Origin: an uncultured Mucilaginibacter sp.
GTDB lineage: Bacteria > Bacteroidota > Bacteroidia > Sphingobacteriales > Sphingobacteriaceae
DNA length: 45,181 bases
Assembly (NCBI RefSeq): GCF_937859865.1
Contig: NZ_CALMAT010000007.1
Coordinates: 1-45,181 of the forward strand
Direction: 5' to 3'
The notes beneath the pieces are model-generated. The model made no database searches, had not been told where the DNA came from, and saw only the letters and a program-made list of their open reading frames with translations. The translations under genes were made by a program, and so were the position numbers. This document shows positions 5,572-33,195 of this stretch, one piece after another. Positions within the stretch are counted from its first letter, which is position 1. Each line of letters starts with the position of its first letter.

Positions 5572-5733
5572 TATCTTCTTGCTTTGAAAAAGGTTCCTCT
5601 CTGCGTTTAGAATGACAAAATTTGTACTTCTTTTTAACTTAATTCAGCATAATTTTAACTACGTTTAGCAAATTTGTTACATCAAGCTAAAAAATTTAAG
5701 TTTTAATTTGAACTAACACACTAAAAAAGGTAC

Positions 5734-5759
5734 GGTAAAAGAAGCATGCTTCTTTTACC
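5734..5759. repeat. Perfect 26-bp palindrome of the dispersed repeat
   Basis: Two copies of the 14-bp core overlap head to head, giving GGTAAAAGAAGCAT fused to its reverse complement through a shared AT; every base is symmetric. It ends 4 bp before the putative -7 box of the M28 peptidase gene, so it could act as an operator-like or cruciform site there. Confidence 0.85.
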
Positions 5760-5763
5760 GGTA

Positions 5764-5771
5764 TAAATTTG
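5764..5771 (+). promoter_or_regulatory. Candidate -7 promoter element (TAAATTTG)
   Basis: TAAATTTG matches the Bacteroidota -7 consensus TAnnTTTG and lies 20 bp before the M28 peptidase ATG. It is embedded in the extended repeat arm (GGTATAAATTTGG) that follows the palindrome. No convincing -33 TTTG is visible. Confidence 0.5.
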
Positions 5772-5791
5772 GCAACAACATCAGCAGAAAC

Positions 5792-7180
5792 ATGAAAAAA
5801 ACAATACTCAGCACTTTTATATTTGCCTCATTCAACATTTTTGCTTTCGCGCAAACCACCATTAAACCTGATTTGCAGATCAGTAAAATGGTGGACGAAG
5901 TTTCGGCCAAAAATTTGGAAGCAACCGTTCGGAAATTGGTGAGCTTCAAAACACGTCACACATTAAGCGATACCACGAGTAAAACAACTGGCATCGGCGC
6001 AGCCAGAAACTGGATCAAAGCCGAAATGGAACGTTACGCCGCTGCTTCCGGCGGAAGGATGAAAGTGGAATTTGATACGTTTACCCAACCAGCAGGCGGA
6101 AGGATTGACAAACCAACCGTTCTAAAAAACGTGCTGGCTATTTTGAAAGGAACCGACCCAAATGATACGCGGATTTACATGGTTTCCGGCCATTATGATT
6201 CCCGGGTGAATGATATTATGAACGCTAGTTCCGTAGAACCTGGCGCAGTTGATGATGCTTCGGGAACGGCTTTGTCTATGGATCTGGCGCGGGTCATGTC
6301 GAGAAGGGCTTTTCCTTCCACCATCATTTTTATGGCCGTTGCCGGAGAAGAGCAGGGTTTAAACGGCTCAACCAATGTGGCCAAACGCGCCAAAGCCGAA
6401 AACTGGAACATTGACGCGATGCTGAACAACGATATTGTGGGCAATACTTACGGCATGGAAACCGGTTTGAAAGATAACCGCAGCATCCGTGTTTTTAGCG
6501 AAGGTGTTCCTTCCACCGCTATTGCTTCCAAAAATGATACTTTGGCTGCCCGCCGTGCCGGTATCGCTATTAATTCTTTGGTTGGAAACGGCGGCGAAAA
6601 TGACAGTCCGTCCCGGCAGTTGGCGCGCTATATCAAAGAAGTTGGCGAGCGTTATGTTGCCCAGTTAGATGTAAAAATGATTTATCGGCGAGACCGCTTT
6701 TTGCGTGGCGGCGACCAAACGCCTTTTTTACAGCAAGGTTTTACGGCCGTCCGTTTTACCGAAATGAACGAGGATTTTAACCGCCAGCACCAGGATGTAC
6801 GCAAAGAAAACGGCGTAGATTACGGCGATGTGCCGGATGCTGCCGATTACGATTACATTCAAAAAATTTCAAGGATGAATTTGTCTGTCCTGGCAAATTT
6901 GGCTTTGGCCCCTGCCGAACCGCAAAACGTTGGCGTCATCACCAGCGGTTTAACCAATAAAACGGCTTTAAAATGGGAAGCGCCAAAAACCGGCAAAAAA
7001 CCCGCAGGTTATTATGTGTTGATGCGCGAAACGATCAGCCCGTACTGGGAAAAGAAATTTTATGTAACGGATACACAAGCTACGATGGATTACTCGAAAG
7101 ACAATTACTTTTTTGCAGTGCAGTCTGTGGATGAGCAAGGGCATGAAAGTTTGCCGGTTGTACCGAAGCCAATTAGGTAG
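5792..7180 (+). CDS. Secreted M28-family metallopeptidase with C-terminal Fn3-like domain
   Basis: 462 residues with a signal peptide (MKKTILST, hydrophobic core, cleavage near FAFAQ, residue 21). The M28 di-zinc centre is recognisable: VSGHYDSR (H134), GAVDDASGTA (D154), AGEEQGLNGS (catalytic and ligand glutamates, 186-187), LNNDIVGN (D214), and a late histidine in FNRQHQD. After about residue 385 an Fn3-like beta domain follows (TSGLTNKTALKWEAPKTG, GYYVLMRET). The family are exported aminopeptidases or carboxypeptidases that trim peptides outside the inner membrane; substrate preference is not readable. It has its own -7 box and appears monocistronic. The convergent toxin gene begins after a repeat copy. 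Confidence 0.9.
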   Translation: MKKTILSTFIFASFNIFAFAQTTIKPDLQISKMVDEVSAKNLEATVRKLVSFKTRHTLSDTTSKTTGIGAARNWIKAEMERYAAASGGRMKVEFDTFTQPAGGRIDKPTVLKNVLAILKGTDPNDTRIYMVSGHYDSRVNDIMNASSVEPGAVDDASGTALSMDLARVMSRRAFPSTIIFMAVAGEEQGLNGSTNVAKRAKAENWNIDAMLNNDIVGNTYGMETGLKDNRSIRVFSEGVPSTAIASKNDTLAARRAGIAINSLVGNGGENDSPSRQLARYIKEVGERYVAQLDVKMIYRRDRFLRGGDQTPFLQQGFTAVRFTEMNEDFNRQHQDVRKENGVDYGDVPDAADYDYIQKISRMNLSVLANLALAPAEPQNVGVITSGLTNKTALKWEAPKTGKKPAGYYVLMRETISPYWEKKFYVTDTQATMDYSKDNYFFAVQSVDEQGHESLPVVPKPIR

Positions 7181-7187
7181 AAGTTGT

Positions 7188-7222
7188 AATACTTCTTTTA
7201 CCACCTAAAATTCCTTACCAAA
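7188..7222 (+). repeat. Direct repeat copy A flanking the toxin-antitoxin module
   Basis: 35 bp that match 7820-7854 with a single mismatch (A versus G at the fourth base). The first part is a dispersed-repeat arm (ATACTTCTTTTACC). It lies just after the M28 peptidase stop. Confidence 0.85.
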
Positions 7223-7238
7223 TCTGCATTTTTTGACT

Positions 7239-7565
7239 TTAAAGGATTGTTTTAAAAATTTGCTCCAATTCTTTGTCTGTAATTGTGCTTTTTTTAGATT
7301 TATCATAAACAGAAGCAAGGTAAACAGTTGTTGCGGTGATTTTCAAATAAGTAATAATCCGGACACCGCCAGATTTTCCTTTGTTTTTCGAAGCAATGGC
7401 TAAACGGATTTTAAAAAAGTTGTTGCCCAAGGGCTTGCCTTGGTTCGGTTCAGTTGTAAGGCTTGCAATAAGTTGGGCCAGGTCGTTTTTAAAAGAAGGA
7501 TGTTTTTTTCCTAACCGTTTTGCTTGTTTGTCAAAAATCGGAATAGTGGCTATTTCATAATTCAT
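7239..7565 (-). CDS. RelE/ParE-superfamily toxin
   Basis: 108 residues with the length and layout of RelE-like mRNA interferases: a basic N-terminal helix (FDKQAKRLGKKHPSFKNDL), the core segment NNFFKIRLAIASKNKGKSGGVRIITYL with several Arg/Lys expected in the active surface, and the closing strand VYLASVYDKSKKS. RelE relatives cleave mRNA in the ribosome and are neutralised by the antitoxin encoded just before them. Its start overlaps the upstream antitoxin gene by 11 nt, so the two are translationally coupled. Sub-family (RelE, HigB or ParE) cannot be fixed by eye; ParE-type gyrase poisoning remains possible. The pair sits between direct repeats. Confidence 0.8.
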   Translation of the reverse strand: MNYEIATIPIFDKQAKRLGKKHPSFKNDLAQLIASLTTEPNQGKPLGNNFFKIRLAIASKNKGKSGGVRIITYLKITATTVYLASVYDKSKKSTITDKELEQIFKTIL

Positions 7566-7788
7566 CCAGCAATTCTTTTGCCGGCCGGGCTTTTAGTTTT
7601 CCTTGTTCTACAAGTTTAAGTTGGGTAACGGCTTCTTTCAATTCGAGTAAAAGCTGTTCTTTGGTTGGTTCTTCAAATTCTAAAACCTCCAAATCTTTGT
7701 ATTGCTTTTTTAGGTTTTCCCATTCTTTAATCGGAATATAAACACCAGTAGCTTTGCCTTTACTATCTTGTATTACCTGTAACCTCAT
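7555..7788 (-). CDS. Antitoxin partner of the RelE-like toxin
   Basis: 77 residues. The N-terminus (MRLQVIQDSKGKATGVYIPI) resembles the beta-strand start of Phd/RelB-like antitoxins, and the acidic, helical C-terminal half (EFEEPTKEQLLLELKEAVTQL) is the sort of segment that wraps the toxin. Gene order, small size and the 11-nt overlap with the toxin support the role; sequence alone would not. A TAATTTTG box ends only 4 nt before the ATG, so the transcript may be leaderless. As with other type II pairs, autorepression by the complex is expected. Confidence 0.7.
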   Translation of the reverse strand: MRLQVIQDSKGKATGVYIPIKEWENLKKQYKDLEVLEFEEPTKEQLLLELKEAVTQLKLVEQGKLKARPAKELLDEL

Positions 7789-7792
7789 AATC

Positions 7793-7800
7793 CAAAATTA
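7793..7800 (-). promoter_or_regulatory. Candidate -7 element for the toxin-antitoxin operon
   Basis: TAATTTTG on the minus strand fits TAnnTTTG. It is 4 nt from the antitoxin ATG, implying transcription starts at or very near the start codon. Confidence 0.5.
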
Positions 7801-7819
7801 GTAAATTGTAATTAAAAGC

Positions 7820-7854
7820 AATGCTTCTTTTACCACCTAAAATTCCTTACCAAA
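7820..7854 (+). repeat. Direct repeat copy B flanking the toxin-antitoxin module
   Basis: 34 of 35 bases identical to 7188-7222, 632 bp away and in the same orientation, with the toxin-antitoxin pair exactly between them. It overlaps the last codons of the small ORF at 7847-8047. Confidence 0.85.
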
Positions 7855-8047
7855 CTTGATCTTTAACCACTTCGCAAACGGTTTGGAATAAATTCATTTT
7901 GCCGGAAAACAAAGAAATAGTTTCGGCACTGGCAATCTGGAAAGTGCGCAAATTTTCTACTTCGTAATTAATGCTCAGCAATAGAGCCAAAATTACCGGT
8001 GCCAAAAGCAGTATAAAAGGGTTGGTGTTGATGATAAAGTTTTTCAT
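7847..8047 (-). CDS. Small putative membrane protein
   Basis: 66 residues beginning MKNFIINTNPF, with one strong hydrophobic segment (FILLLAPVILALLLSI, about residues 11-26) followed by a polar tail. I recognise no family. It is plausible as a real gene because it starts with a clean ATG and has an ordered membrane-anchor layout, but it could also be chance. Its last residues and stop lie inside repeat copy B, so the repeat may have replaced or created the original 3' end. Confidence 0.45.
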   Translation of the reverse strand: MKNFIINTNPFILLLAPVILALLLSINYEVENLRTFQIASAETISLFSGKMNLFQTVCEVVKDQVW

Positions 8048-8229
8048 GACTATCGGTTTGATGAATCAAAGAAAAAGCTAATCTGCAAGCTGCTAAATGC
8101 TTATTAGGCAGAGCTGTAAGAAAAATCGGTGAACGGCATTTTTTTACCGACGAAAATTTTTACCGAAAGAAGAAAAAACCTAAAATTAAAAAAAGAGAAA
8201 GACTATTTCTATTATAAAATTAGCGTGCC

Positions 8230-8721
8230 TTATTTCCATTTTACAGCTACATCCTTAAGTTTTAAGTTTAATGTTCGTCCTGGTGCATCAGGATCGTAAT
8301 ACTCGATATTAATAAGTTTTAAAATAAGGGTAGTTGGAGTTGTTTTTAATTCGATAGTTGTTTTGACAGGAGTATTTGAAAATAGCTTTCCCCTTATTCC
8401 TGAAGAACCAATGTTAATATTACCCGCTTTTATTTCATTTCCTTCTACATCTATTGCAGATGCACCTGCAAACTGAAATTCTTTATCTGCCCCTTTGTTG
8501 GTTAACACAAACTGTAGCGTTATTTTATCACTGCTTTTATTGCCTTCTGCTTTAATCAAATTAAAATCAATGTTTTCTGCTTGAGCAGTCAAGATCGGTT
8601 TTTGAATATTTAAGGCTGAGCGCAAATATTGATTTTCTTTTGCCAAATCAACGCAATCTTTAGTTTGAGCATTAGCAGATAGTCCGCATAGGATTAGTGA
8701 AATTGTAAGTAAGTTTTTCAT
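8230..8721 (-). CDS. Secreted protein of unknown function
   Basis: 163 residues with a signal peptide (MKNLLTISLILCGLSANAQ, cleavage after the final AQ region). The mature part is mostly predicted beta strand with patterns such as KITLQFVLTNKGADKEFQF and KTTIELKTTPTTLILKLINI, suggesting an immunoglobulin-like or jelly-roll domain exported to the periplasm or surface. No catalytic motif is visible. A TATCTTTG box lies 7 nt before the start. It is separated from neighbours on both sides, so it is probably monocistronic. Confidence 0.75.
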   Translation of the reverse strand: MKNLLTISLILCGLSANAQTKDCVDLAKENQYLRSALNIQKPILTAQAENIDFNLIKAEGNKSSDKITLQFVLTNKGADKEFQFAGASAIDVEGNEIKAGNINIGSSGIRGKLFSNTPVKTTIELKTTPTTLILKLINIEYYDPDAPGRTLNLKLKDVAVKWK

Positions 8722-9560: not shown

Positions 9561-10112
9561 TTAATTTTCCGAGAGCATGATGTGTACTTTCAAAACCGCC
9601 GCAACGGTAATAGCATCGGTAATTTCGCCACGGCAAACCATTTGGTAAACTTCTTCAAAAGGTAATTTTTTGATTGTTAACTGTTCGGTTTCTTCCGGTT
9701 CGGCTTCAAATTGTTCCAGGTTTTGAGCGAGATAAATGATGGCTTCTTCATCACAAACCGAATTGGACAAATACATGCGCTGGATTTCGGTCCATTTCCC
9801 AGCTTTTAATCCGGTTTCTTCCAACAGTTCGCGTTTGGCCGAATCCAAAGGTTCGCCGGATAATGGCCCGCCGCCTTCCGGGATTTCCCAACTGTATTGC
9901 TTTAACGGAAAGCGAAATTGCCCGACCAAATACGTGTTGAGGTTTTCATCCAAAGGCAAAACGCCAATCGCTTTATTTTTAAAATGAACCCGGCCATAAA
10001 TCCCGGGATTACCCGAAGGATTGAGCACCTGAAACTCAGTAATATTGATCCAAGGGTTATCGTAAATATTTTCTTCGGAAGTAACTTTCCAGGGATTAAC
10101 TTCAGTTTGCAT
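9561..10112 (-). CDS. NUDIX hydrolase (ADP-ribose pyrophosphatase-like)
   Basis: 183 residues from the ATG at 10112; an in-frame start at 10181 would run into the EamA gene and adds nothing family-like. The NUDIX box is present: PEGGGPLSGEPLDSAKREL followed by LEETGL, giving the metal-binding REXXEE core. The loop between the first box glutamate and the arginine is one residue shorter than the textbook pattern. The upstream strand (KNKAIGVLPLDENLNTYLVG, QFRFPLKQYSWEIPEG) matches the ADP-ribose/GDP-mannose pyrophosphatase branch, which hydrolyses nucleoside diphosphates linked to sugars. It is cytoplasmic and lies 34 nt after the EamA gene and 32 nt before plsC. Confidence 0.88.
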   Translation of the reverse strand: MQTEVNPWKVTSEENIYDNPWINITEFQVLNPSGNPGIYGRVHFKNKAIGVLPLDENLNTYLVGQFRFPLKQYSWEIPEGGGPLSGEPLDSAKRELLEETGLKAGKWTEIQRMYLSNSVCDEEAIIYLAQNLEQFEAEPEETEQLTIKKLPFEEVYQMVCRGEITDAITVAAVLKVHIMLSEN

Positions 10113-10146
10113 GGTTGTAAAAGTAGTAAAATTTAAAAGCCGGAAA

Positions 10147-11070
10147 TCAGGTTGCCGTTGCTTTTTGGTATTCAGGTACATTTACCAATACAATGCCAAC
10201 CAAAATAATGACGAGTGCGAGCAACTGTTCTTTTACCAAACTTTCGTGCGCAAACAACCAGCCTAAAAGCACGGCCACAACCGGATTAACATAAGTATGC
10301 GTACTAATCAAGGCCGGAGGACGCTTGGAAATGAGCCAAACGAAAGACATATAGGCAATTAAAGAACCAAAAACGATTAGGAACAACAGTCCCAGCCATG
10401 ATTGTGTAGGAACATTTGCAAAGGAAAAACCGGAAAATTCTCCGGTAAAAGAAGCAATAACGCCGCTTAACGCTGCTGCTGCCAGCAATTGGATGCTGCT
10501 GTTCATCACAATGGAGCTGCTGCCTTTGGTATTGCTAATCAGGAGCGAACCTAAAACCCACCAAATTGCGCTCAGCAAAACAACCAAAGTTGCAATAAGG
10601 CCAATGGCAGATTGGTTGATTTGCACATCAGTTGATTTTAGAAACAGAAAAATCCCGCCAAAGCCAATAATTAATCCGGCAATAATGTATTTGTTGGAGA
10701 AGTAAGTTTTCCAGTTTTTTTTATCCAACAGCAAAAACCACAACGGTTCGGTTGCAATTAGGATGGCGGCCTGTCCGGAGGTAATGTATTGTTCGGCCCA
10801 GGCAATCATCCCGGTGCCGCCAACCAGCATTAATATACCGCTTAAAGCATGCCTTGAAATTATTTTTAGCGAAGGCCGTTTTTCGCCTTTTAGTTTGGCA
10901 TAAGCCAGCAAAATTAAACCGGCCACGAGGTAACGTAATCCAACTAAAACAAAAGGCGGAAAACCTTTTAGCCCGAAAGCCACAGCCAAATAGGTAGAAC
11001 CCCAAATAATGTAGATGTTAAAAAAAGCGAAAATCAGCAGGAGTCGCTGGAAGAGCAGGTTATTTTTCAT
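10147..11070 (-). CDS. EamA/DMT-family transporter
   Basis: 307 residues, nearly all hydrophobic, arranged as ten membrane segments in two tandem five-helix EamA repeats (about 10-135 and 155-295). Typical segments are IYIIWGSTYLAVAFGLKGFP at the start and AYMSFVWLISKRPPALISTH followed by VNPVVAVLLGWLFAHE in the second repeat. Such carriers export amino acids, nucleosides or other metabolites across the inner membrane; the substrate is unknown. The gene follows metK by 72 nt, a gap filled by a hairpin and a repeat pair. A 13-base stretch of the dispersed repeat occurs inside its coding region at 10444-10456. Confidence 0.9.
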   Translation of the reverse strand: MKNNLLFQRLLLIFAFFNIYIIWGSTYLAVAFGLKGFPPFVLVGLRYLVAGLILLAYAKLKGEKRPSLKIISRHALSGILMLVGGTGMIAWAEQYITSGQAAILIATEPLWFLLLDKKNWKTYFSNKYIIAGLIIGFGGIFLFLKSTDVQINQSAIGLIATLVVLLSAIWWVLGSLLISNTKGSSSIVMNSSIQLLAAAALSGVIASFTGEFSGFSFANVPTQSWLGLLFLIVFGSLIAYMSFVWLISKRPPALISTHTYVNPVVAVLLGWLFAHESLVKEQLLALVIILVGIVLVNVPEYQKATAT

Positions 11071-11083
11071 ACCGAGACCTTAA

Positions 11084-11118
11084 TTTTTGGTATTGCCTCA
11101 AAACGGCAATACCAAAAA
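11084..11118. other. Strong hairpin between metK and the EamA gene
   Basis: A perfect 14-bp stem TTTTTGGTATTGCC / GGCAATACCAAAAA with a 7-nt loop. In the direction of the genes (minus) the U-run is on the 5' side and the A-run on the 3' side, so it is not a textbook intrinsic terminator. It may act in RNA stability or as a partial barrier that tunes downstream expression. Confidence 0.65.
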
Positions 11119-11124
11119 ATATAG

Positions 11125-11167
11125 GGTAAAAGAAGCATCGGCTTATAAACCAAATGCTTCTTTTACC
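11125..11167. repeat. Inverted repeat pair overlapping the metK 3' end
   Basis: Arms 11125-11138 and 11154-11167 are exact 14-bp reverse complements (GGTAAAAGAAGCAT / ATGCTTCTTTTACC) with a 15-nt loop. The metK stop (complement of 11143-11145) lies in the loop, and the right arm encodes metK residues including Lys-Glu-Ala. Confidence 0.85.
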
Positions 11168-12393
11168 TGGTCTAAATAGTCGAGTTTTTCCCAGGTAAAC
11201 AATTCTACTTCTACCTTGGTTTCTTCGCCGTTTGGCGTGAAGAAAGATTTGATTACCGTTTGCGGTTCCTTACCAAAATGCCCATAAGCCGCAGTTTCAG
11301 AATAAATTGGGTTGCGCAATTTAAAACGGGTTTCGATGGCGTAAGGCGTCATATCAAAAATGGCAGCCACTTTTTCGGCGATTTCTCCGTCGTGCAAATT
11401 CACTTTTCCAGTGCCGTACGTGTTTACATAAATGCCCATCGGTTGTGCCACGCCAATGGCATAAGAAACCTGGACCAGAATTTCGGTACAAACACCGGCA
11501 GCAACTAAATTTTTGGCGATATGGCGTGTGGCATAAGCTGCAGAACGGTCAACTTTTGAAGGATCTTTTCCGGAAAAAGCACCGCCGCCGTGCGCACCTT
11601 TGCCGCCGTAAGTATCTACAATAATTTTTCGCCCGGTCAAACCGGTATCGCCGTGCGGGCCGCCAATAACAAATTTTCCGGTTGGGTTGATGTGGTATTT
11701 AATTTCGTCGTTAAAAAAGTGGCTGTATTTTGGATACTTTGCTTTTACACGCGGGATCAGGATTTTAATGATGTCTTCCCTGATCTTTTCTAACATTGCT
11801 TTTTCCTCGTCAAAATCATCGTGCTGCGTAGAAATTACGATCGCATCAATCCGGATGGGCTGGTTGTCATCGTTATATTCCAGCGTTACCTGCGATTTTG
11901 CATCCGGCCTTAAATACGGTATGTCTGAGTTTTCTCGGCGAATGGCAGCCAGTTCGATCAGCAAAGCATTGGCAATATCCAACGTAAGCGGCATAAAATT
12001 ATCCGTTTCGATAGTGGCATAACCGAACATCATGCCCTGGTCTCCGGCGCCTTGCAGTTGTTTATCGGCGCGGTCAACACCTTGGTTGATGTCCGGTGAT
12101 TGTTCATGAATGGCCGATAGCACACCGCAGGAATTGCCATCAAACATGTAAGCGCCTTTGGTATAACCAATTTTGTTGATCACATCGCGGGCAATTTTTT
12201 GCACGTCTAAATAAGCTTTGGATTTCACTTCTCCCGCCAAAAAAACCTGCCCGGTGGTAACCAACGTTTCGCAGGCAACTTTAGAATCAGGGTCGAAGGC
12301 CAAAAAATTATCAATTAAAGCATCAGAAATTTGATCGGCAACTTTATCGGGATGCCCTTCAGAAACAGATTCCGAAGTAAATAAATATGACAT
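11143..12393 (-). CDS. metK: S-adenosylmethionine synthetase
   Basis: 416 residues, close to the Bacteroidota length for MetK. It makes SAM from methionine and ATP in the cytoplasm. The signature segments are all present: [16 protein letters not shown] (ATP/phosphate binding, near residue 10), [12 protein letters not shown] (MAT signature 1), [20 protein letters not shown] and [19 protein letters not shown] (MAT signature 2 with the tripolyphosphate-loop residues). The gene has its own -7 box and a probable SAM-II riboswitch in the leader, so feedback repression by the product is likely. It heads a minus-strand series with the EamA transporter, NUDIX hydrolase and plsC. The last codons coincide with a dispersed-repeat arm. 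Confidence 0.97.
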
Positions 12394-12466
12394 AGCTATT
12401 TTAATAAGTTAACATGAATAAAAAAGCAAAATAGCCGGATGAGGATTGCAAGCGCAAAATGGAAGA

Positions 12467-12522
12467 CCAGTTTTTTAGCACTTTTTTTTACGTGGTTGCA
12501 ATCAATTCAAATCAGTCCACTT
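12467..12522 (-). promoter_or_regulatory. Probable SAM-II riboswitch in the metK leader
   Basis: On the minus strand the leader reads GUGG-ACUGAUUUGAAUUG-AUUGCAA-CCAC-GU, an A-run, then GUGCUAAAAAACUGG. GUGG (12517-12520) and CCAC (12492-12495) can form the closing P1 stem. The blocks CUGAUUU, AUUGCAA and GCUAAAAA occur in the order and spacing I know for the SAM-II (metA-type) aptamer of alphaproteobacteria and Bacteroidota. Position fits: a -7 box ends 10 nt upstream, and metK starts 74 nt downstream. I did not run a covariance model; the pseudoknot pairing was not verified base by base. Confidence 0.72.
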
Positions 12523-12531
12523 TACAGCCAG

Positions 12532-12539
12532 CAAAATTA
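12532..12539 (-). promoter_or_regulatory. Candidate -7 promoter element of metK
   Basis: TAATTTTG on the minus strand fits TAnnTTTG. Transcription starting a few bases downstream would begin right at the 5' edge of the riboswitch aptamer, which supports both calls. Confidence 0.6.
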
Positions 12540-12593
12540 GAACATTTTTATAATTGCCGAAATTTGAAACCAGATTTGTTTTTTGCAGTTGCA

Positions 12594-12709
12594 ATGCTTC
12601 TTTTAGTGCCATAAATTTGGGGTGGATGAAGAACAAGAATAAAATTATATGTGGTAAATTTCGTTCAACAAAAGTTTTCGCACTAAATTTATACCGGTAA
12701 AAACAGCAT
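12594..12709. repeat. Degenerate inverted pair of the dispersed repeat (116 bp)
   Basis: Left arm ATGCTTCTTTTAGTGCC followed by ATAAATTTGG at 12594; right arm at 12686-12709 reads AAATTTATACC then GGTAAAAACAGCAT, the same extended arm reversed with two changes in the core. With the metK leader this fills the 354 bp between metK and the SUI1 gene; nothing else is evident in that gap. Confidence 0.6.
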
Positions 12710-12747
12710 CACGAAAAGGCGTTCAACTCTTTAATAGATAAATTAAT

Positions 12748-13089
12748 TTGAGCAAGAGAAATAAAAATGCCACAGGCGTAGTTTATTCTACTGATCCTGG
12801 TTTTGAATACCAGCAGGAAAATGACTGGGTTGGCGAAACGCTTCCTGCGCAACAGCAGCAGCTCAAGATTTTTTTAGACCGGAAAGCGGGCGGAAAATTG
12901 GTAACTAGGATTACAGAATTTAAAGGCAACGAAGAAGATTTGGAAAAATTAGGTAAAAAACTGAAAGCAAAATGCGGTGTAGGCGGAGCGGTAAAAGACG
13001 GCGAAATATTGATCCAGGGAAATTTCAGGGACAAGGTTTTACAGATTTTGCAAACCGATAACTACAAAGCAAAAATAGCCGGAGGATAG
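12748..13089 (+). CDS. SUI1/YciH-family translation initiation factor (eIF1-like)
   Basis: 113 residues with a TTG start at 12748; the only other in-frame choice before a stop is an ATT two codons earlier. The C-terminal two thirds is the SUI1 domain: [20 protein letters not shown], then [20 protein letters not shown] and [17 protein letters not shown], matching the eIF1 fold and its Lys/Gly-rich loops. The N-terminal 45 residues are polar and probably disordered, as in other bacterial YciH proteins. Bacterial members bind the 30S subunit and are thought to affect initiation fidelity; the precise role is uncertain. It appears monocistronic. Confidence 0.9.
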
Positions 13090-13291
13090 GCAACAATTTT
13101 TACAATTACGGCAATGGTGTGTTTTTTACACTTAATACTTGCATTAATTAATATTTTTCACTTTTATTGTAAAAACAAATTTGTAGAAAGTGTTATTTTT
13201 AAATCAAAGCAGTTCGATAAGCATTTTTAAGGAGGTAAATTAAATTAACATTATCTTTTATATTTATTCTTTTTTTAAAATAGTAAAACTT

Positions 13292-13299
13292 TAAATTTG
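13292..13299 (+). promoter_or_regulatory. Candidate -7 element of the exbB-tonB operon
   Basis: TAAATTTG fits TAnnTTTG and lies 78 bp before the exbB start, in a very AT-rich 288-bp intergenic region that shows no other gene. It would give a leader of roughly 70 nt. Confidence 0.5.
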
Positions 13300-13377
13300 T
13301 TATTCCATTTATAAAAACACCAATATTAAACCCTACATTTATAAAACTAAAAACTAACTAAACTAAAAAACCAAACA

Positions 13378-14226
13378 ATGGCAACTACTCCACCAAAACC
13401 AACAACAACAGCAACAGTAAAAAAAGAAGGCTCAGGTTCATCGAGCATTTTTGCATCTTTAGTAATTCCAATCGCATTTGTCGTAGCTTTATTGATATAC
13501 ATATTTGTATTGGGTGATCCAAGTCATTACAAAGGCGGTGACCCAGCTAACGAGCCAGCAAATGGTGATTACTTTGGTGTTGTGCACAAAGGAGGACCAA
13601 TTGTACCAGTTCTAATGACCTTTTTGCTTTGTGTTATTATTTTTTCTATTGAGCGCTTTGTTGTAATTGGTAAAGCGGCTGGTTCTGGAAATGTAGACGC
13701 TTTTATCAAAAAAGTTCAGTCTTACCTTAATGCTGGAAACATTGAAGCAGCAAGTGCCGAGTGCGATAAACAAAAAGGTTCGGTAGCAAACGTGATTAAA
13801 TCAGGTTTGAAAAAATACCGCGAGATGGAACAAGAGCCAAATTTGGACGTAGATCAGAAATGCCTGGCTATCCAAAAAGATATTGAAGAAGCAACTTCTT
13901 TAGAAATGCCAATGTTGGAGCAAAACTTAACGATCATTGCAACTTTGGTATCTATCGGTACATTAACCGGTTTGTTAGGTACAGTAACTGGTATGATTAA
14001 AGCGTTCGCTGCATTGGCAACATCAGGAGCTCCCAATCAAGCTGCACTGGCGACAGGTATATCTGAAGCTTTGATCAATACAGCTTTAGGTATTTTCACC
14101 TCAACCTTAGCCGTTATTGCGTACAACTACTTTACTTCTAAAATTGATACCTTAACCTATGCTATTGATGAAACAGGTTTTAGTATTGTTCAAACTTATG
14201 CAGCTTCCCATAAAAATAATCATTAA
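13378..14226 (+). CDS. exbB: MotA/TolQ/ExbB proton channel family protein
   Basis: 282 residues. After a Thr/Pro/Lys-rich cytoplasmic N-terminus (about 1-22) there is a membrane helix (IFASLVIPIAFVVALLIYIF), a second one near residues 75-95 (VPVLMTFLLCVIIFSIERFV), a long cytoplasmic helical domain, and the paired C-terminal helices with the conserved GTLTGLLGTVTGMIKAF and NTALGIFTSTLAVIAYNYF. ExbB forms the inner-membrane ring that, with ExbD, couples proton flow to TonB and so powers outer-membrane receptors. It is the first gene of exbB-exbD-exbD-tonB, followed by three linked genes. The extra N-terminal segment is common in Bacteroidota members. Confidence 0.93.
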   Translation: MATTPPKPTTTATVKKEGSGSSSIFASLVIPIAFVVALLIYIFVLGDPSHYKGGDPANEPANGDYFGVVHKGGPIVPVLMTFLLCVIIFSIERFVVIGKAAGSGNVDAFIKKVQSYLNAGNIEAASAECDKQKGSVANVIKSGLKKYREMEQEPNLDVDQKCLAIQKDIEEATSLEMPMLEQNLTIIATLVSIGTLTGLLGTVTGMIKAFAALATSGAPNQAALATGISEALINTALGIFTSTLAVIAYNYFTSKIDTLTYAIDETGFSIVQTYAASHKNNH

Positions 14227-14294
14227 TTTTTATCGTTAATATGTCTGCAATTGTTTGCTCATATTTCTAACCGATTATTTAAAATAAAGTAATT

Positions 14295-14900
14295 ATGCCA
14301 AGAGCTCATATAAAAAGAAAAAGTACTGCAATCGATATGACAGCGATGTGCGATATGGCTTTCCTTTTGCTTACCTTTTTTATTCTTACTTCCAAGCCTA
14401 AAACAGAAGATCTTGTTCCGGTAGATATTCCTGGATCTTCTGTGCTGATTAAATTACCGGATGATGTAGCAACCCTTACAATTGGACAAGGAAAGGTTTT
14501 TTTTAGTATTGAAGGAGAAGCGATAAAGGCACAAACATTAGAAAATGTTGGTCAAAAGTATAATATAACTTTTACACCTGCAGAAAAAGAGTTGTTTTCT
14601 CGATTGCCATCTTTTGGTGTGCCCATAGCCAGTATGAAACAGTTTCTGGATATGGATCCGGAGAAACGTAAGGCATTAAAACAACCGGGAATACCAACTG
14701 ATTCTGTTAGTAATGAATTGTTTAACTGGGTTCGTGAAGCTCGGGTTTCAGCAAAAGCTTTGGTTAATAAAGATTTAAGGATTGGTATTAAAGGAGATAG
14801 CAAGGAAGAATATCCTACTATTAAAAAAGTGATTGCAATATTGCAAAAACAAAAAGTAAACAAATTTAGCCTGATTACTTCAATGCGGGCTGCGAAATAA
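14295..14900 (+). CDS. exbD: ExbD/TolR biopolymer transport protein (first copy)
   Basis: 201 residues. A short basic N-terminus (MPRAHIKRKSTAIDMTAMCD) leads into one membrane helix, MAFLLLTFFILTS, that follows the critical Asp of the family (in DMTAMCDMAF); the rest is periplasmic. This Asp in the helix region is the proton-carrying residue in ExbD. The periplasmic domain is larger than in E. coli ExbD and ends KVIAILQKQKVNKFSLITSM, the usual closing strand and helix. It lies 68 nt after exbB and 16 nt before a second exbD, as in many Bacteroidota. Two different ExbD subunits may form a heteromeric stator. Confidence 0.92.
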   Translation: MPRAHIKRKSTAIDMTAMCDMAFLLLTFFILTSKPKTEDLVPVDIPGSSVLIKLPDDVATLTIGQGKVFFSIEGEAIKAQTLENVGQKYNITFTPAEKELFSRLPSFGVPIASMKQFLDMDPEKRKALKQPGIPTDSVSNELFNWVREARVSAKALVNKDLRIGIKGDSKEEYPTIKKVIAILQKQKVNKFSLITSMRAAK

Positions 14901-14916
14901 TTAAACTTAAAATAAG

Positions 14917-15453
14917 ATGGCAGAATTAGATACCTCCGGGGGTGGCAAAAAAGGCGGGGGAAAAGTAAGGAGTAAAAAAGCATCCACCCGTGTTGATTTA
15001 ACAGCTATGGTAGATTTGGCTTTCCTGCTGATCACATTTTTTATGCTAACCACAACCTTGGCAAAACCACAGGCTATGGATTTAGGCATGCCAGATAAGG
15101 ATGATATTAAAAAGGATCAGTTACCAGTTCCGGCCTCTCGTACAATGTCTGTATTACTGGGCAGTAAAGATAAATTAGAATGGTTTGTTGGCGAACCAGG
15201 AAAAGTAGCCCCTAATGTTGATAATTACGGAAAAAATGGAATTCGTAAAGCTTTATTGGATAATGCTACACGTATTAAACAACAATCAGGTGGAAAGGAT
15301 ATGATCGTGTTAATTAAGCCATCAGATAAATCTGACTACAAGAATTTAGTGGATATGCTGGACGAACTTAAAATTGCTAATATTCAGATTTATGCAATTG
15401 TAGATATTACCGCTGCTGAGGTCGAATCGTTGAAACGAGATGCCCTTTACTAA
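14917..15453 (+). CDS. exbD: ExbD/TolR biopolymer transport protein (second copy)
   Basis: 178 residues, paralogous to the gene just upstream. The N-terminal cytoplasmic tail is Gly/Lys/Ser-rich, then VDLTAMVDLAFLLITFFMLT carries the family Asp and single membrane helix. The periplasmic part ends with NLVDMLDELKIANIQIYAIV, the typical ExbD terminal fold. It should work with ExbB and TonB in energising outer-membrane transport. The two copies differ clearly outside the helix, so this is an old duplication and not a recent one. The gap to tonB is 60 nt. Confidence 0.92.
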   Translation: MAELDTSGGGKKGGGKVRSKKASTRVDLTAMVDLAFLLITFFMLTTTLAKPQAMDLGMPDKDDIKKDQLPVPASRTMSVLLGSKDKLEWFVGEPGKVAPNVDNYGKNGIRKALLDNATRIKQQSGGKDMIVLIKPSDKSDYKNLVDMLDELKIANIQIYAIVDITAAEVESLKRDALY

Positions 15454-15513
15454 TATGTGTAATCAAGATAGAATCAATCAGTTAAAAAAATTAAATCATA
15501 AATTTAAACAACC

Positions 15514-16350
15514 ATGGCAAGATTAGATATATTGGATCCGGAATGGATCGAGGTTGTTTTTAGGGGCCGCAATAAGGCTTATGGAGCGTATGTGCTACGT
15601 AAGGAAAATGCAAAGACATCAGTACGGGCTTTAATCATTGCCAGTGCTTTATTTGTTTTGGCTATTGCAATGCCTACTATTATCAACAAACTTAAAGGTT
15701 TTATCCCTAAGGCAGATGAAAAAGTAAAAATCCAGGATGTTGTGTTAATACCGCCACCGCCGATAGATGCAACTAAACCGCCACCCCCGCCACCTAAAGT
15801 GGAGCCGCCAAAACCAAAAGTTGACCAGGTGCGTTTTCCGCCTCCGGTTGTTAAGCCAGATAATGAGGTGAAGGAAAAAGATCCGCCGACGGTAAAGGAA
15901 CTGGAAGTAAAAGACCCAGGGCAAAAAGATTTGAAAGGCGACCCCAGTGCTGATATCCGTATAGATGAAGCTGTAGGCAAATCGGACATAAAAGAAAAAG
16001 TAGTTGAAGAAAATACCAATGCGATTGTAAGTTTCGCGGCAGTTGAAAAATTGCCGGCATTTCCTGGTGGTGAAGGTGCATTTGGTAGTTATCTACAAAA
16101 GAACCTTCGTTACCCTCCAGTAGCAAAAGAAAACAATACGCAAGGTCGTGTTATCTTATCTTTTGTGGTAGAAAAAGACGGCAGCTTAACTGATATTAAA
16201 GTATTGCGAGATATTGGCGGAGGATGTGGCCAGGAAGCCATACGGGTATTGTCTAAATCGCCACATTGGACACCTGGTATCCAAAACGGAAAGCCAGTTC
16301 GTGTTGCTTTTACCATGCCGGTTAACTTTACGCTTTCGTCAGACCAGTAA
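15514..16350 (+). CDS. tonB: TonB family energy-transducing protein
   Basis: 278 residues. A short cytoplasmic segment is followed by one membrane helix (ALIIASALFVLAIAMPTII, about 34-52), then the proline-rich periplasmic spacer (VLIPPPPIDATKPPPPPP and KVEPPKPKVDQV), and the TonB C-terminal domain (about 180-275) with LPAFPGGEGAFGSYL, YPPVAKENNTQGRVILSF and VLRDIGGGCGQEAIRVLSK. It spans the periplasm to contact TonB-box receptors. The C-terminal domain is strikingly like the one in the M56 sensor at 504-2399. A strong hairpin lies about 30 bp after the stop, inside the next small gene. Confidence 0.93.
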   Translation: MARLDILDPEWIEVVFRGRNKAYGAYVLRKENAKTSVRALIIASALFVLAIAMPTIINKLKGFIPKADEKVKIQDVVLIPPPPIDATKPPPPPPKVEPPKPKVDQVRFPPPVVKPDNEVKEKDPPTVKELEVKDPGQKDLKGDPSADIRIDEAVGKSDIKEKVVEENTNAIVSFAAVEKLPAFPGGEGAFGSYLQKNLRYPPVAKENNTQGRVILSFVVEKDGSLTDIKVLRDIGGGCGQEAIRVLSKSPHWTPGIQNGKPVRVAFTMPVNFTLSSDQ

Positions 16351-16357
16351 TATTAAC

Positions 16358-16576
16358 ATGTTTGACCGATTAAATTTTAAGGAGAAACCGCTCAAAGAGC
16401 GGTTTCTCCTTATTTTAGGCTTAACCACATTTGTTTGTTTTGTAAGTTTAGGATTAATGGTTATGTTTTGGGACAAGCTTCCTTTAAACATGAACAATAC
16501 CCAACGTTACTTATTTGGTGCTGTAATTATTATTTATTCCGTACTTCGATTTTCCAGATATATTACAAGAAAATGA
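16358..16576 (+). CDS. Small two-helix membrane protein of the tonB operon
   Basis: 72 residues starting at the ATG at 16358, 7 bp after tonB. A basic N-terminus (MFDRLNFKEKPLKER) is followed by two membrane helices (FLLILGLTTFVCFVSLGLMV and YLFGAVIIIYSVLRF). I recognise no named family. The gene is likely real because it ends in an ATGA overlap with the next gene and fills the space exactly. Its codons 9-17 form a perfect 13-bp hairpin followed by a T-rich run, so the coding sequence doubles as a potential attenuator. Confidence 0.7.
   Translation: MFDRLNFKEKPLKERFLLILGLTTFVCFVSLGLMVMFWDKLPLNMNNTQRYLFGAVIIIYSVLRFSRYITRK
16381..16409 (+). terminator. Perfect hairpin with T-rich tail downstream of tonB
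   Basis: A 13-bp GC-rich stem (GGAGAAACCGCTC / GAGCGGTTTCTCC) with a 3-nt AAA loop, followed by TTATTTT. It has the features of an intrinsic terminator, but lies inside an open small gene of the same operon. Partial termination (attenuation) that lowers expression of the PstS-like and TPR genes relative to tonB is the simplest reading. Confidence 0.7.
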
Positions 16577-17484
16577 AATCAAGAAATTTAATAAGTTTCA
16601 GTTGTACATTACTATTAAGTATAGTTATTGCTTCCTGCAATAATGCAAATACTGCCGACCAATTCACTTCCGGTAGTTATCGTTTTGTGTTTGATGAATC
16701 GCTTTCCCCGATATTAGACCAGGAGCTGTACGTTTTTAAATCTATTTATCCAGATGCAAAACCTGATGTTATTTATCAACCTGAAAATAAAATACTGGAT
16801 TTAATGCTGAATAATAAAGCAAGATTTGCAGTTATGGGACGTACTTTGAATCCAGACGAAGTAAAAGTGTTAAACAACCGAAATTTACCTCCGCAGATTG
16901 GGAAAATTGCCGAAGATGCCATTGCTTTAATTGTTGGAAAAAATTCCCCGGATTCATTAATGCTGCTGTCAGAAGTAAAAAGTTTGTTTTTAAGCAATAC
17001 TAAAACAAGTAAAAACCTCGTTTTTGATAGTCCAAACTCAAGCATTATTAATTACTTAATGAAGTTATCAGGAACGAACCAATTAAAACAAAAAAATGTT
17101 TATGCCCTTAAAAATAGCAAGGAAGTGATAAAGTATGTTGCCACGCATCAGGATGCAGTTGGTTTTATCAGTTACAGTTGGTTATTAGAACCAGATACAG
17201 ATTATGCCAGTGCAGCTCAAAACATTAGCGTTGTTGGTGTAAAGGATGACAACACAAAAAACATAAACAATAGTTATGTTAAACCTTCGCAATCCGCTTT
17301 GGCTCTAAACCAATATCCTTTAAAAAGAACAATTTATATAGTAGATTGTACCGGTAAAGTAGGTTTAGGTACAGGTTTTGCTTCCTTTTTACAAAGTGAA
17401 CGAGGGCAAAAGATAATATTACGGTCAGGTTTATTACCTGATTCTTTGCCCAGAAGGGAAATAAATATTAAAAAGGACTTATAA
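16573..17484 (+). CDS. PstS-like substrate-binding lipoprotein
   Basis: 303 residues from the ATG at 16573, which overlaps the stop of the small membrane gene (ATGA). The signal peptide ends in a lipobox (LLLSIVIASC), so the protein is a lipoprotein. The mature part has the PBP-like layout of phosphate-binding proteins: FVFDESLSPILDQEL, NNKARFAVMGRTLNPDEV, QDAVGFISYSWL and a late VGLGTGFASFLQSERGQKII. In PstS these regions wrap the ligand. No Pst transporter is nearby, and the association with exb-tonB suggests a role tied to outer-membrane energy transduction. Ligand unknown. Confidence 0.8.
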   Translation: MKSRNLISFSCTLLLSIVIASCNNANTADQFTSGSYRFVFDESLSPILDQELYVFKSIYPDAKPDVIYQPENKILDLMLNNKARFAVMGRTLNPDEVKVLNNRNLPPQIGKIAEDAIALIVGKNSPDSLMLLSEVKSLFLSNTKTSKNLVFDSPNSSIINYLMKLSGTNQLKQKNVYALKNSKEVIKYVATHQDAVGFISYSWLLEPDTDYASAAQNISVVGVKDDNTKNINNSYVKPSQSALALNQYPLKRTIYIVDCTGKVGLGTGFASFLQSERGQKIILRSGLLPDSLPRREINIKKDL

Positions 17485-19671: not shown

Positions 19672-19705
19672 AAGTCAGTTTGAAATTTTTTCGATAATAA
19701 TTCAT

Positions 19706-19786
19706 ATGCTTCTTTTACCACATAAAAATCATTGAGGTCTTGTGCTTTTTATACCGAAACAAAATTTAGAGGCATAAAAGAAGCAT
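19706..19786. repeat. Inverted pair of the dispersed repeat between nuoA and nuoB (81 bp)
   Basis: Left arm ATGCTTCTTTTACC (19706-19719) continues ACATAAAAATC; right arm CATAAAAGAAGCAT (19773-19786) is preceded by AAATTTAGAGG, the reversed extended arm. The rest of the 265-bp gap carries no gene; a -7 box lies later at 19887. Confidence 0.78.
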
Positions 19787-19886
19787 GATAAATTTTGCGA
19801 TAAAAATTTAAACCAGTTTTAATAATAGAATTGTTCTAAATAAGTTTATGCTGGTTTAGAAGCTATTGCACAAGAAGTTATTATTG

Positions 19887-33010: not shown

Positions 33011-33042
33011 GGCAGAATTGTTTATGCCAGAAAAAATTGCCC

Positions 33043-33130
33043 ATGCTTCTTTTACCCTATAAAAATTGGTGCCTGTATCAATTTAAATAAAACCAAAACT
33101 TTGCCAATTTTTAGATGATAAAAGAAGCAT
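33043..33130. repeat. Inverted pair of the dispersed repeat after nuoN (88 bp)
   Basis: The clearest full-length element. The left arm (from 33043) and right arm (to 33130, read on the other strand) both begin ATGCTTCTTTTA and share TAAAAATTGG after a short variable spacer, giving about 27-bp inverted ends around an AT-rich interior of some 34 bp. No flanking duplication is visible. Confidence 0.82.
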
Positions 33131-33195
33131 GATGGTTGTTAGGTAAACTTTAAACAGGCTATTAGCTTTGGCAGCTAAAACTGCAATTAATTTAA

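Follow-up and report, generated by a model that had tools for sequence, protein, structure and literature searches.

The window analysed here is a stretch of 45,181 nucleotides from an uncultured Mucilaginibacter sp. (contig NZ_CALMAT010000007.1), and the element under study is a toxin-antitoxin (TA) pair that it carries between two 35-bp direct repeats. As the original prediction had it, and as we confirm, the repeats at 7188-7222 and 7820-7854 are identical at 34 of 35 positions and lie in the same orientation at a spacing of 632 bp, and the interval between them holds the toxin and antitoxin open reading frames (ORFs) only; no mobility gene was found in this insert. We compared the locus in the window's own genome (G000) with its counterparts in two congeneric genomes (G001 and G002), which are referred to below as empty sites. 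The three congeneric genomes are drafts, and orthologous sites among them are not independent. The features of the locus are the following.

7188..7222, minus strand: target copy 2, distal, beyond the toxin, made of the adjoining gene's last codons and stop and of the dispersed-repeat arm; matches 7820-7854 at 34/35 positions and aligns to the single copy at both empty sites
7820..7854, minus strand: target copy 1, proximal, at the true 3′ end of the adjoining gene; 34/35 repeat match, alignment with loci L079 and L080
7188..7819, no strand: net inserted segment of 632 bp, one target copy plus the TA module (7223-7854 can be counted equally well); absent from G001:C1 and G002:C1
7239..7565, minus strand: RelE/HigB-2-like toxin, 108 amino acids; Pfam RelE PF06296 at 31 bits (cut-off 27), and HigB-2 PDB chains 5ja8, 5ja9 and 8a0x at E ~1e-10 (profile A1)
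7555..7788, minus strand: antitoxin ORF, 77 amino acids, overlapping the toxin start; a similar ORF precedes the toxin at L119 8591-8824 and in Spirosoma terrae at L147 3778-4011
7189..7200, minus strand: dispersed-repeat arm, variant ATACTTCTTTTA on the plus strand, at the outer edge of copy 2, 1 bp off the duplication boundary
7821..7832, minus strand: dispersed-repeat arm, ATGCTTCTTTTA on the plus strand, at the edge of copy 1 that faces the TA pair, 1 bp off the duplication boundary
7847..8047, minus strand: adjoining (target) gene, a 66-codon small membrane-protein-like ORF whose 3′ end is duplicated; conserved in both congeners
5792..7180, plus strand: M28 family peptidase gene (PF04389, 91.8 bits), the other flank, convergent; the same neighbour at both empty sites

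The two congeners contain the empty site that had been predicted. In G001 and G002 the M28 peptidase gene adjoins the 66-codon ORF, with a single repeat copy and no TA pair. On the peptidase side, the identity of the match is 84% for G001 and 78% for G002, which probably makes G002 the more distant congener, and since the nearer and the more distant one are both empty, a single gain in the lineage of the window is the simplest history. With one target copy in each of these genomes and two around the window pair, insertion with duplication, one of the two origins first proposed, is supported. The anatomy of the locus would also permit the precise loss of the module by recombination, which is therefore possible.

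Read on the minus strand and aligned with the empty sites, the 35-bp repeat opens with TTTGGTAA, which covers the last codons and the stop of the 66-codon ORF; a spacer follows, and after it GGTAAAAGAAGYATT, the repeat arm. It had been described as made from the dispersed repeat, and this description is not supported as the origin: the common arm accounts for only about 15 of the 35 bases, and the remainder is local, including the end of the adjoining gene. Because the 3′ end of the neighbouring gene is included, we regard the 35-bp repeat as a duplicated target and not merely as a dispersed element. Partial copies of about 24-34 nt (88-100%) exist elsewhere in the genome, because some variants of the dispersed repeat resemble the window repeat beyond the arm. 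The reservation that the same 35 bp might be widespread without a TA pair is justified only as far as the arm and the few bases next to it. RNA folding gave no stable hairpin in the 35-bp copies (z above 0), and Rfam returned no known RNA for window positions 6900-8300.

The toxin was rightly called RelE-like: the PF06296 match and the match to the HigB-2 structure profile both place it in the RelE superfamily. No Pfam family matched the antitoxin ORF, and NCBIfam matched neither partner. By its sequence, the pair is a predicted type II TA module of HigB-2/RelE-like type. The plasmid-borne copies of the toxin all show less than 60% identity, so that a donor was not found.

Chance can be excluded as the origin of the bracket. 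Of 714 random positions in the genus, only 5 had direct repeats with an E value of 1e-5 or better on both sides within 500 bp. Only one other bracket of comparable quality was seen in 220 kb, and it is made of a different dispersed repeat. The window duplication nevertheless lies near the short end of the range reported below and is, taken alone, less convincing.

Gene-end duplications at sister loci and beyond

Sister loci were found via other copies of the window toxin in the genus. The duplicated targets are the ends of purN, tadA, ksgA and of arabinofuranosidase, aminopeptidase and dehydrogenase genes, mostly over lengths greater than in the window (39-224 bp). Across the genus loci the duplications measure 35, 39, 53, 84, 107, 123, 124, 165, 175 and 224 bp and consist of local host sequence; about eight TA families occupy such brackets, and a full copy of the host gene is kept in every case.

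Within G000, contig C33 carries a paralogous, partly broken TA pair flanked by two 53-bp stretches that repeat the downstream end of an aminopeptidase-like gene, and contig C76 a pair flanked in the same way by 124 bp of the 3′ end of purN (purN duplications overall span 124-224 bp, at 86-93%). A pair in G001 is set between 123-bp copies of the end of an arabinofuranosidase gene. At these three loci, as in the window, the TA pair lies downstream of the gene whose end is copied and is read in the same direction. The arabinofuranosidase pair is missing from two congeners; the purN and aminopeptidase pairs are common to G000 and G001 and missing from G002. On C33 (L002 1150-1680) the toxin frame is broken and both repeat copies are kept. 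We also observed a 7.3-kb insertion of G001, absent in G000 and G002, directly past the shared aminopeptidase pair (L121 ~9719-16996; G001:C45:161719-168995).

Several anchor genes have received more than one module. Both purN and the arabinofuranosidase gene have three copies of the gene end, the second interval carrying another TA family: at purN, TacA/GNAT in G000 and HigBA, reversed, in G001; at the arabinofuranosidase gene of G001, UPF0175/DUF3368-PIN. At tadA in G001, 84-bp copies of the 5′ end of the gene enclose a PIN/DUF6364 pair, and another RelE-like pair stands alongside. The order at ksgA in G002 is the gene itself, a DUF433-like pair, a 165-bp duplicate of the gene's end, and then a ParE-like pair. 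The G001 homologue of this ParE-like pair is enclosed by 175-bp copies (95%) of a 2-hydroxyacid dehydrogenase gene's 5′ end. As the targets include both 5′ and 3′ ends, either end of a gene can serve. Pfam confirmed the PIN/DUF6364, TacA/GNAT, HigB and UPF0175/DUF3368 cassettes and returned nothing for the ParE-like pair of G001:C1; the labels ParE-like, HEPN/MNT-like, DUF433-like, RES/Xre-like and DHFR-like used here are our own reading of the sequences.

Copies 1 and 2 of the purN end are 88-89% alike within a genome and 80-81% between genomes, and the shared TA insert is 83% alike. The simplest reading is that the copies were homogenised by gene conversion, the repeats recombining without loss of the TA pair; as the sequences are short, this reading may be given moderate weight.

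We also scanned 1.76 Mb chosen regardless of the window toxin. In unique sequence, the scan returned ParE-like pairs at G001:C1:25507 and G001:C34:154891, a HEPN/MNT-like pair at the end of another gene (G001:C45:36053) and the DUF433-like pair at ksgA; a RES/Xre-like pair (G001:C12:107664-109837) is ambiguous. TA pairs dominate the brackets of the scan, but not exclusively.

Brackets are enriched around related toxins on both scales. Five of the 11 toxin loci of the genus are bracketed, against the 5/714 random positions (p=7e-8). The wider set was drawn from named Bacteroidota genomes and comprised the 72 related toxin loci that had sufficient flanks, the controls being pseudo-modules in the same loci, shifted by 1.7-2.9 kb; at E 1e-5 or better, 16/72 toxin loci and 11/525 shifted controls were bracketed (Fisher p=1.8e-9). 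Spirosoma terrae KCTC 52035 (L147) provides a clean case, with a 101-bp duplication, 96% identical, that contains a terminator-like hairpin. Folding gave z values of -2.8 for the purN hairpin and -3.3 for that of Spirosoma. In another genus of the family, a related TA pair was seen between 190-bp copies of a GC-rich element (L058, genome G104).

Mode of insertion

We consider it likely that a bare TA addiction module inserted once in the window and produced a long target duplication, the copying step and the retention being the inferred parts of this reading. The module would arrive as a small DNA with little besides its two genes and would be joined at a nick, or at a replication or repair intermediate, beside the end of a host gene. 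Copying of the stretch between two displaced joints would then leave a direct repeat of variable length, from tens to hundreds of bp, and the duplicate would keep the host gene whole. A copy with a hairpin would supply the module with a terminator of its own, which fits purN and Spirosoma, but not the window. The direct repeat should allow deletion of the insert by RecA, and ordinary genes inserted in this manner would be lost; loss of a TA module would poison the cell, and TA modules would thus be retained and seen. Such retention by addiction, in spite of excisable repeats, is the mechanism that we propose.

Several points weigh against this reading. In the 1.76-Mb scan, tandem paralogs and dispersed repeat families were removed by inspection. 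The same scan contained two brackets around something other than a TA pair: a single DHFR/RibD-like gene between 105-bp copies of the 3′ end of the upstream gene (G001:C12:311235-312147; L246 11235-12147), and a gene for a small coiled-coil protein, one of a multi-copy family, within a 53-bp terminator-like direct repeat (G001:C34:167263-167711; L259 7263-7711). The idea that only TA modules are bracketed was rejected on account of these two. Furthermore, 56 of the 72 wider loci are without a repeat, through age or another route.

How the insertion point might be chosen brings us back to the dispersed repeat. Its core has 2,320 matches (up to 3 mismatches) in the 3.98-Mb genome, versus 32 for a reversed control. 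In sampled sequence, exact copies of the 12-mer ATGCTTCTTTTA number 538 per Mb, and its reversal is absent. The repeat appears to be much rarer outside the genus, with 562-878 first-look candidates in three congeners and at most 64 elsewhere, by what is an indirect measure. The 12-mer is typical of the genus and occurs in direct, inverted and hairpin arrangements, in the window (for example at 33042-33131, 19705-19812 and 5718-5772) and genome-wide, and it builds a composite of about 150 bp at L067 4528-4683; its density and pairing resemble those of REPIN repeats and also of DNA uptake sequences. A second dispersed repeat family of the genus, CTACTGGTCGGGATTTGCAATCC..., was noted at L122 19500-20000 (in tandem), L123 8317-10813 and G001:C12:313033. 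A single-copy Y1 (IS200-like) transposase gene is located between histidine kinase and response regulator genes (L036 1327-1788; G000:C34), and it is possibly the RAYT of the dispersed repeat. Tight flanking of this gene by the repeat was looked for and rejected, as only loose arms lie some hundreds of bases or more away.

Among the alternatives, the one that survives best holds that this Y1 (HUH) transposase nicks the foot of the repeat, where one end of the TA module joins, and that a second, loose break sets the variable other end of the duplication. The genome has one Y1_Tnp gene, in single copy. Of six independent target sites, four have a repeat foot no more than 1 bp from a duplication boundary, namely those at purN, at tadA, at the second arabinofuranosidase cassette and in the window; as background, about 13% of non-ORF positions lie within 10 bp of a foot. 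This pattern hints at directed insertion and is suggestive only. The binomial p is only 0.003-0.04, according to the background chosen, and for two sites, aminopeptidase and dehydrogenase, no foot is closer than 17-18 bp. Moreover, intergenic DNA, in which insertions survive, is rich in these repeats, and the wider Bacteroidota cases show terminators or no repeat instead. We judge this route to be rather unlikely. The same doubt applies to a broader proposition, namely that unrelated TA families may move as bare two-gene cassettes by a common gene-end-duplicating route and build integrase-free arrays, aimed in this genus by the dispersed palindromic repeat and its Y1 nickase.

The second origin first proposed, recombination between two pre-existing dispersed repeats that trapped or brought in the TA pair, would make the 35-bp copies two ordinary members of the family. 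The arm is indeed one of about 2,300 copies, and the partial matches elsewhere point the same way. However, each congener has a single copy at the corresponding position, the shared 35 bp extend over the local gene's stop codon, and no equally alike pair of these repeats exists in 220 kb. The purN, arabinofuranosidase, dehydrogenase and ksgA duplications are unique coding sequence, and the sister loci duplicate 80-220 bp of unique, largely coding host DNA. This origin is largely refuted, and we rate it as very unlikely.

A slightly smaller chance still is left to integron-like cassettes, in which the repeats would be attachment sites for a tyrosine recombinase encoded elsewhere in the genome. 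TA cassettes that stand in tandem, with a repeat behind each one, recall superintegrons, and generic tyrosine recombinases are present. The search for an integron integrase found none above the cut-off (TIGR02249, best 104.8 bits versus 265), on which ground this hypothesis was rejected. Moreover, the repeats range from 35 to 224 bp, vary from site to site, copy the local host gene and share only the repeat arm or a variant of it, with no common attC, and HigBA is reversed in one array. The least probable alternative, tandem duplication of a segment already containing the TA pair followed by decay of one side, fits the RES/Xre locus, where the far copy has a toxin-end remnant, but the window site lacks a TA pair in the congeners, and remnants of a toxin or an antitoxin are not seen outside the repeats in the window or in the outer copies at purN and arabinofuranosidase.

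Relation to known systems

Insertion of a bare TA module with gene-end duplication leaves a footprint shared by about eight TA families, with matching empty sites, and this footprint makes the route testable through its junctions, excision and repeat length. It suggests why addiction modules dominate such inserts, as they would be the ones to survive inside a direct repeat, and how addiction genes may enter chromosomes. According to a 2020 review of type II TA systems (PMC7167474), the mechanism of integration is unelucidated, and REP sequences are present at one insertion locus. We found no report of long target duplication around TA modules in open-licence papers.

The predicted module shares with HigB-2/RelE type II systems the PF06296 and HigB-2 structure matches and a small overlapping partner gene; unlike them, its antitoxin precedes the toxin and matches no Pfam family. 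The dispersed repeat resembles REP/REPIN elements and their RAYTs in being a short palindrome-forming sequence at thousands of mostly intergenic sites, accompanied by one single-copy Y1 gene. It differs in that this gene is without tight flanking repeats, and the pairing of the two is only putative.

In Vibrio superintegrons, TA modules are thought to stabilise the cassette array (PMC2654758). The arrays described here are likewise tandem, with a repeat after each module. They differ from superintegrons in that an integron integrase was not found and there is no common attC, each array repeating the end of its own anchor gene.

The closest parallel is the insertion of restriction-modification (R-M) systems with long target duplication (Nobusato et al. 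2000; Furuta et al. 2010), as outlined in PMC3874152. In both cases a bare, strain-specific addiction module is flanked by long, variable direct repeats of the order of 100 bp, the empty strain has one copy, and the insert is devoid of transposase or integrase. Unlike in the R-M case, the target here is usually the end of a host gene, a single anchor gene can hold a stack of modules, and the boundary in this genus often falls at a dispersed repeat. As the cargo consists of type II TA modules of about eight families, we consider these insertions a variant, and not a member in the narrow sense, of that process. PMC3874152 ascribes the process to R-M and not to TA systems, and the TA cargo seen here ties the mobility of TA modules to that of R-M systems.
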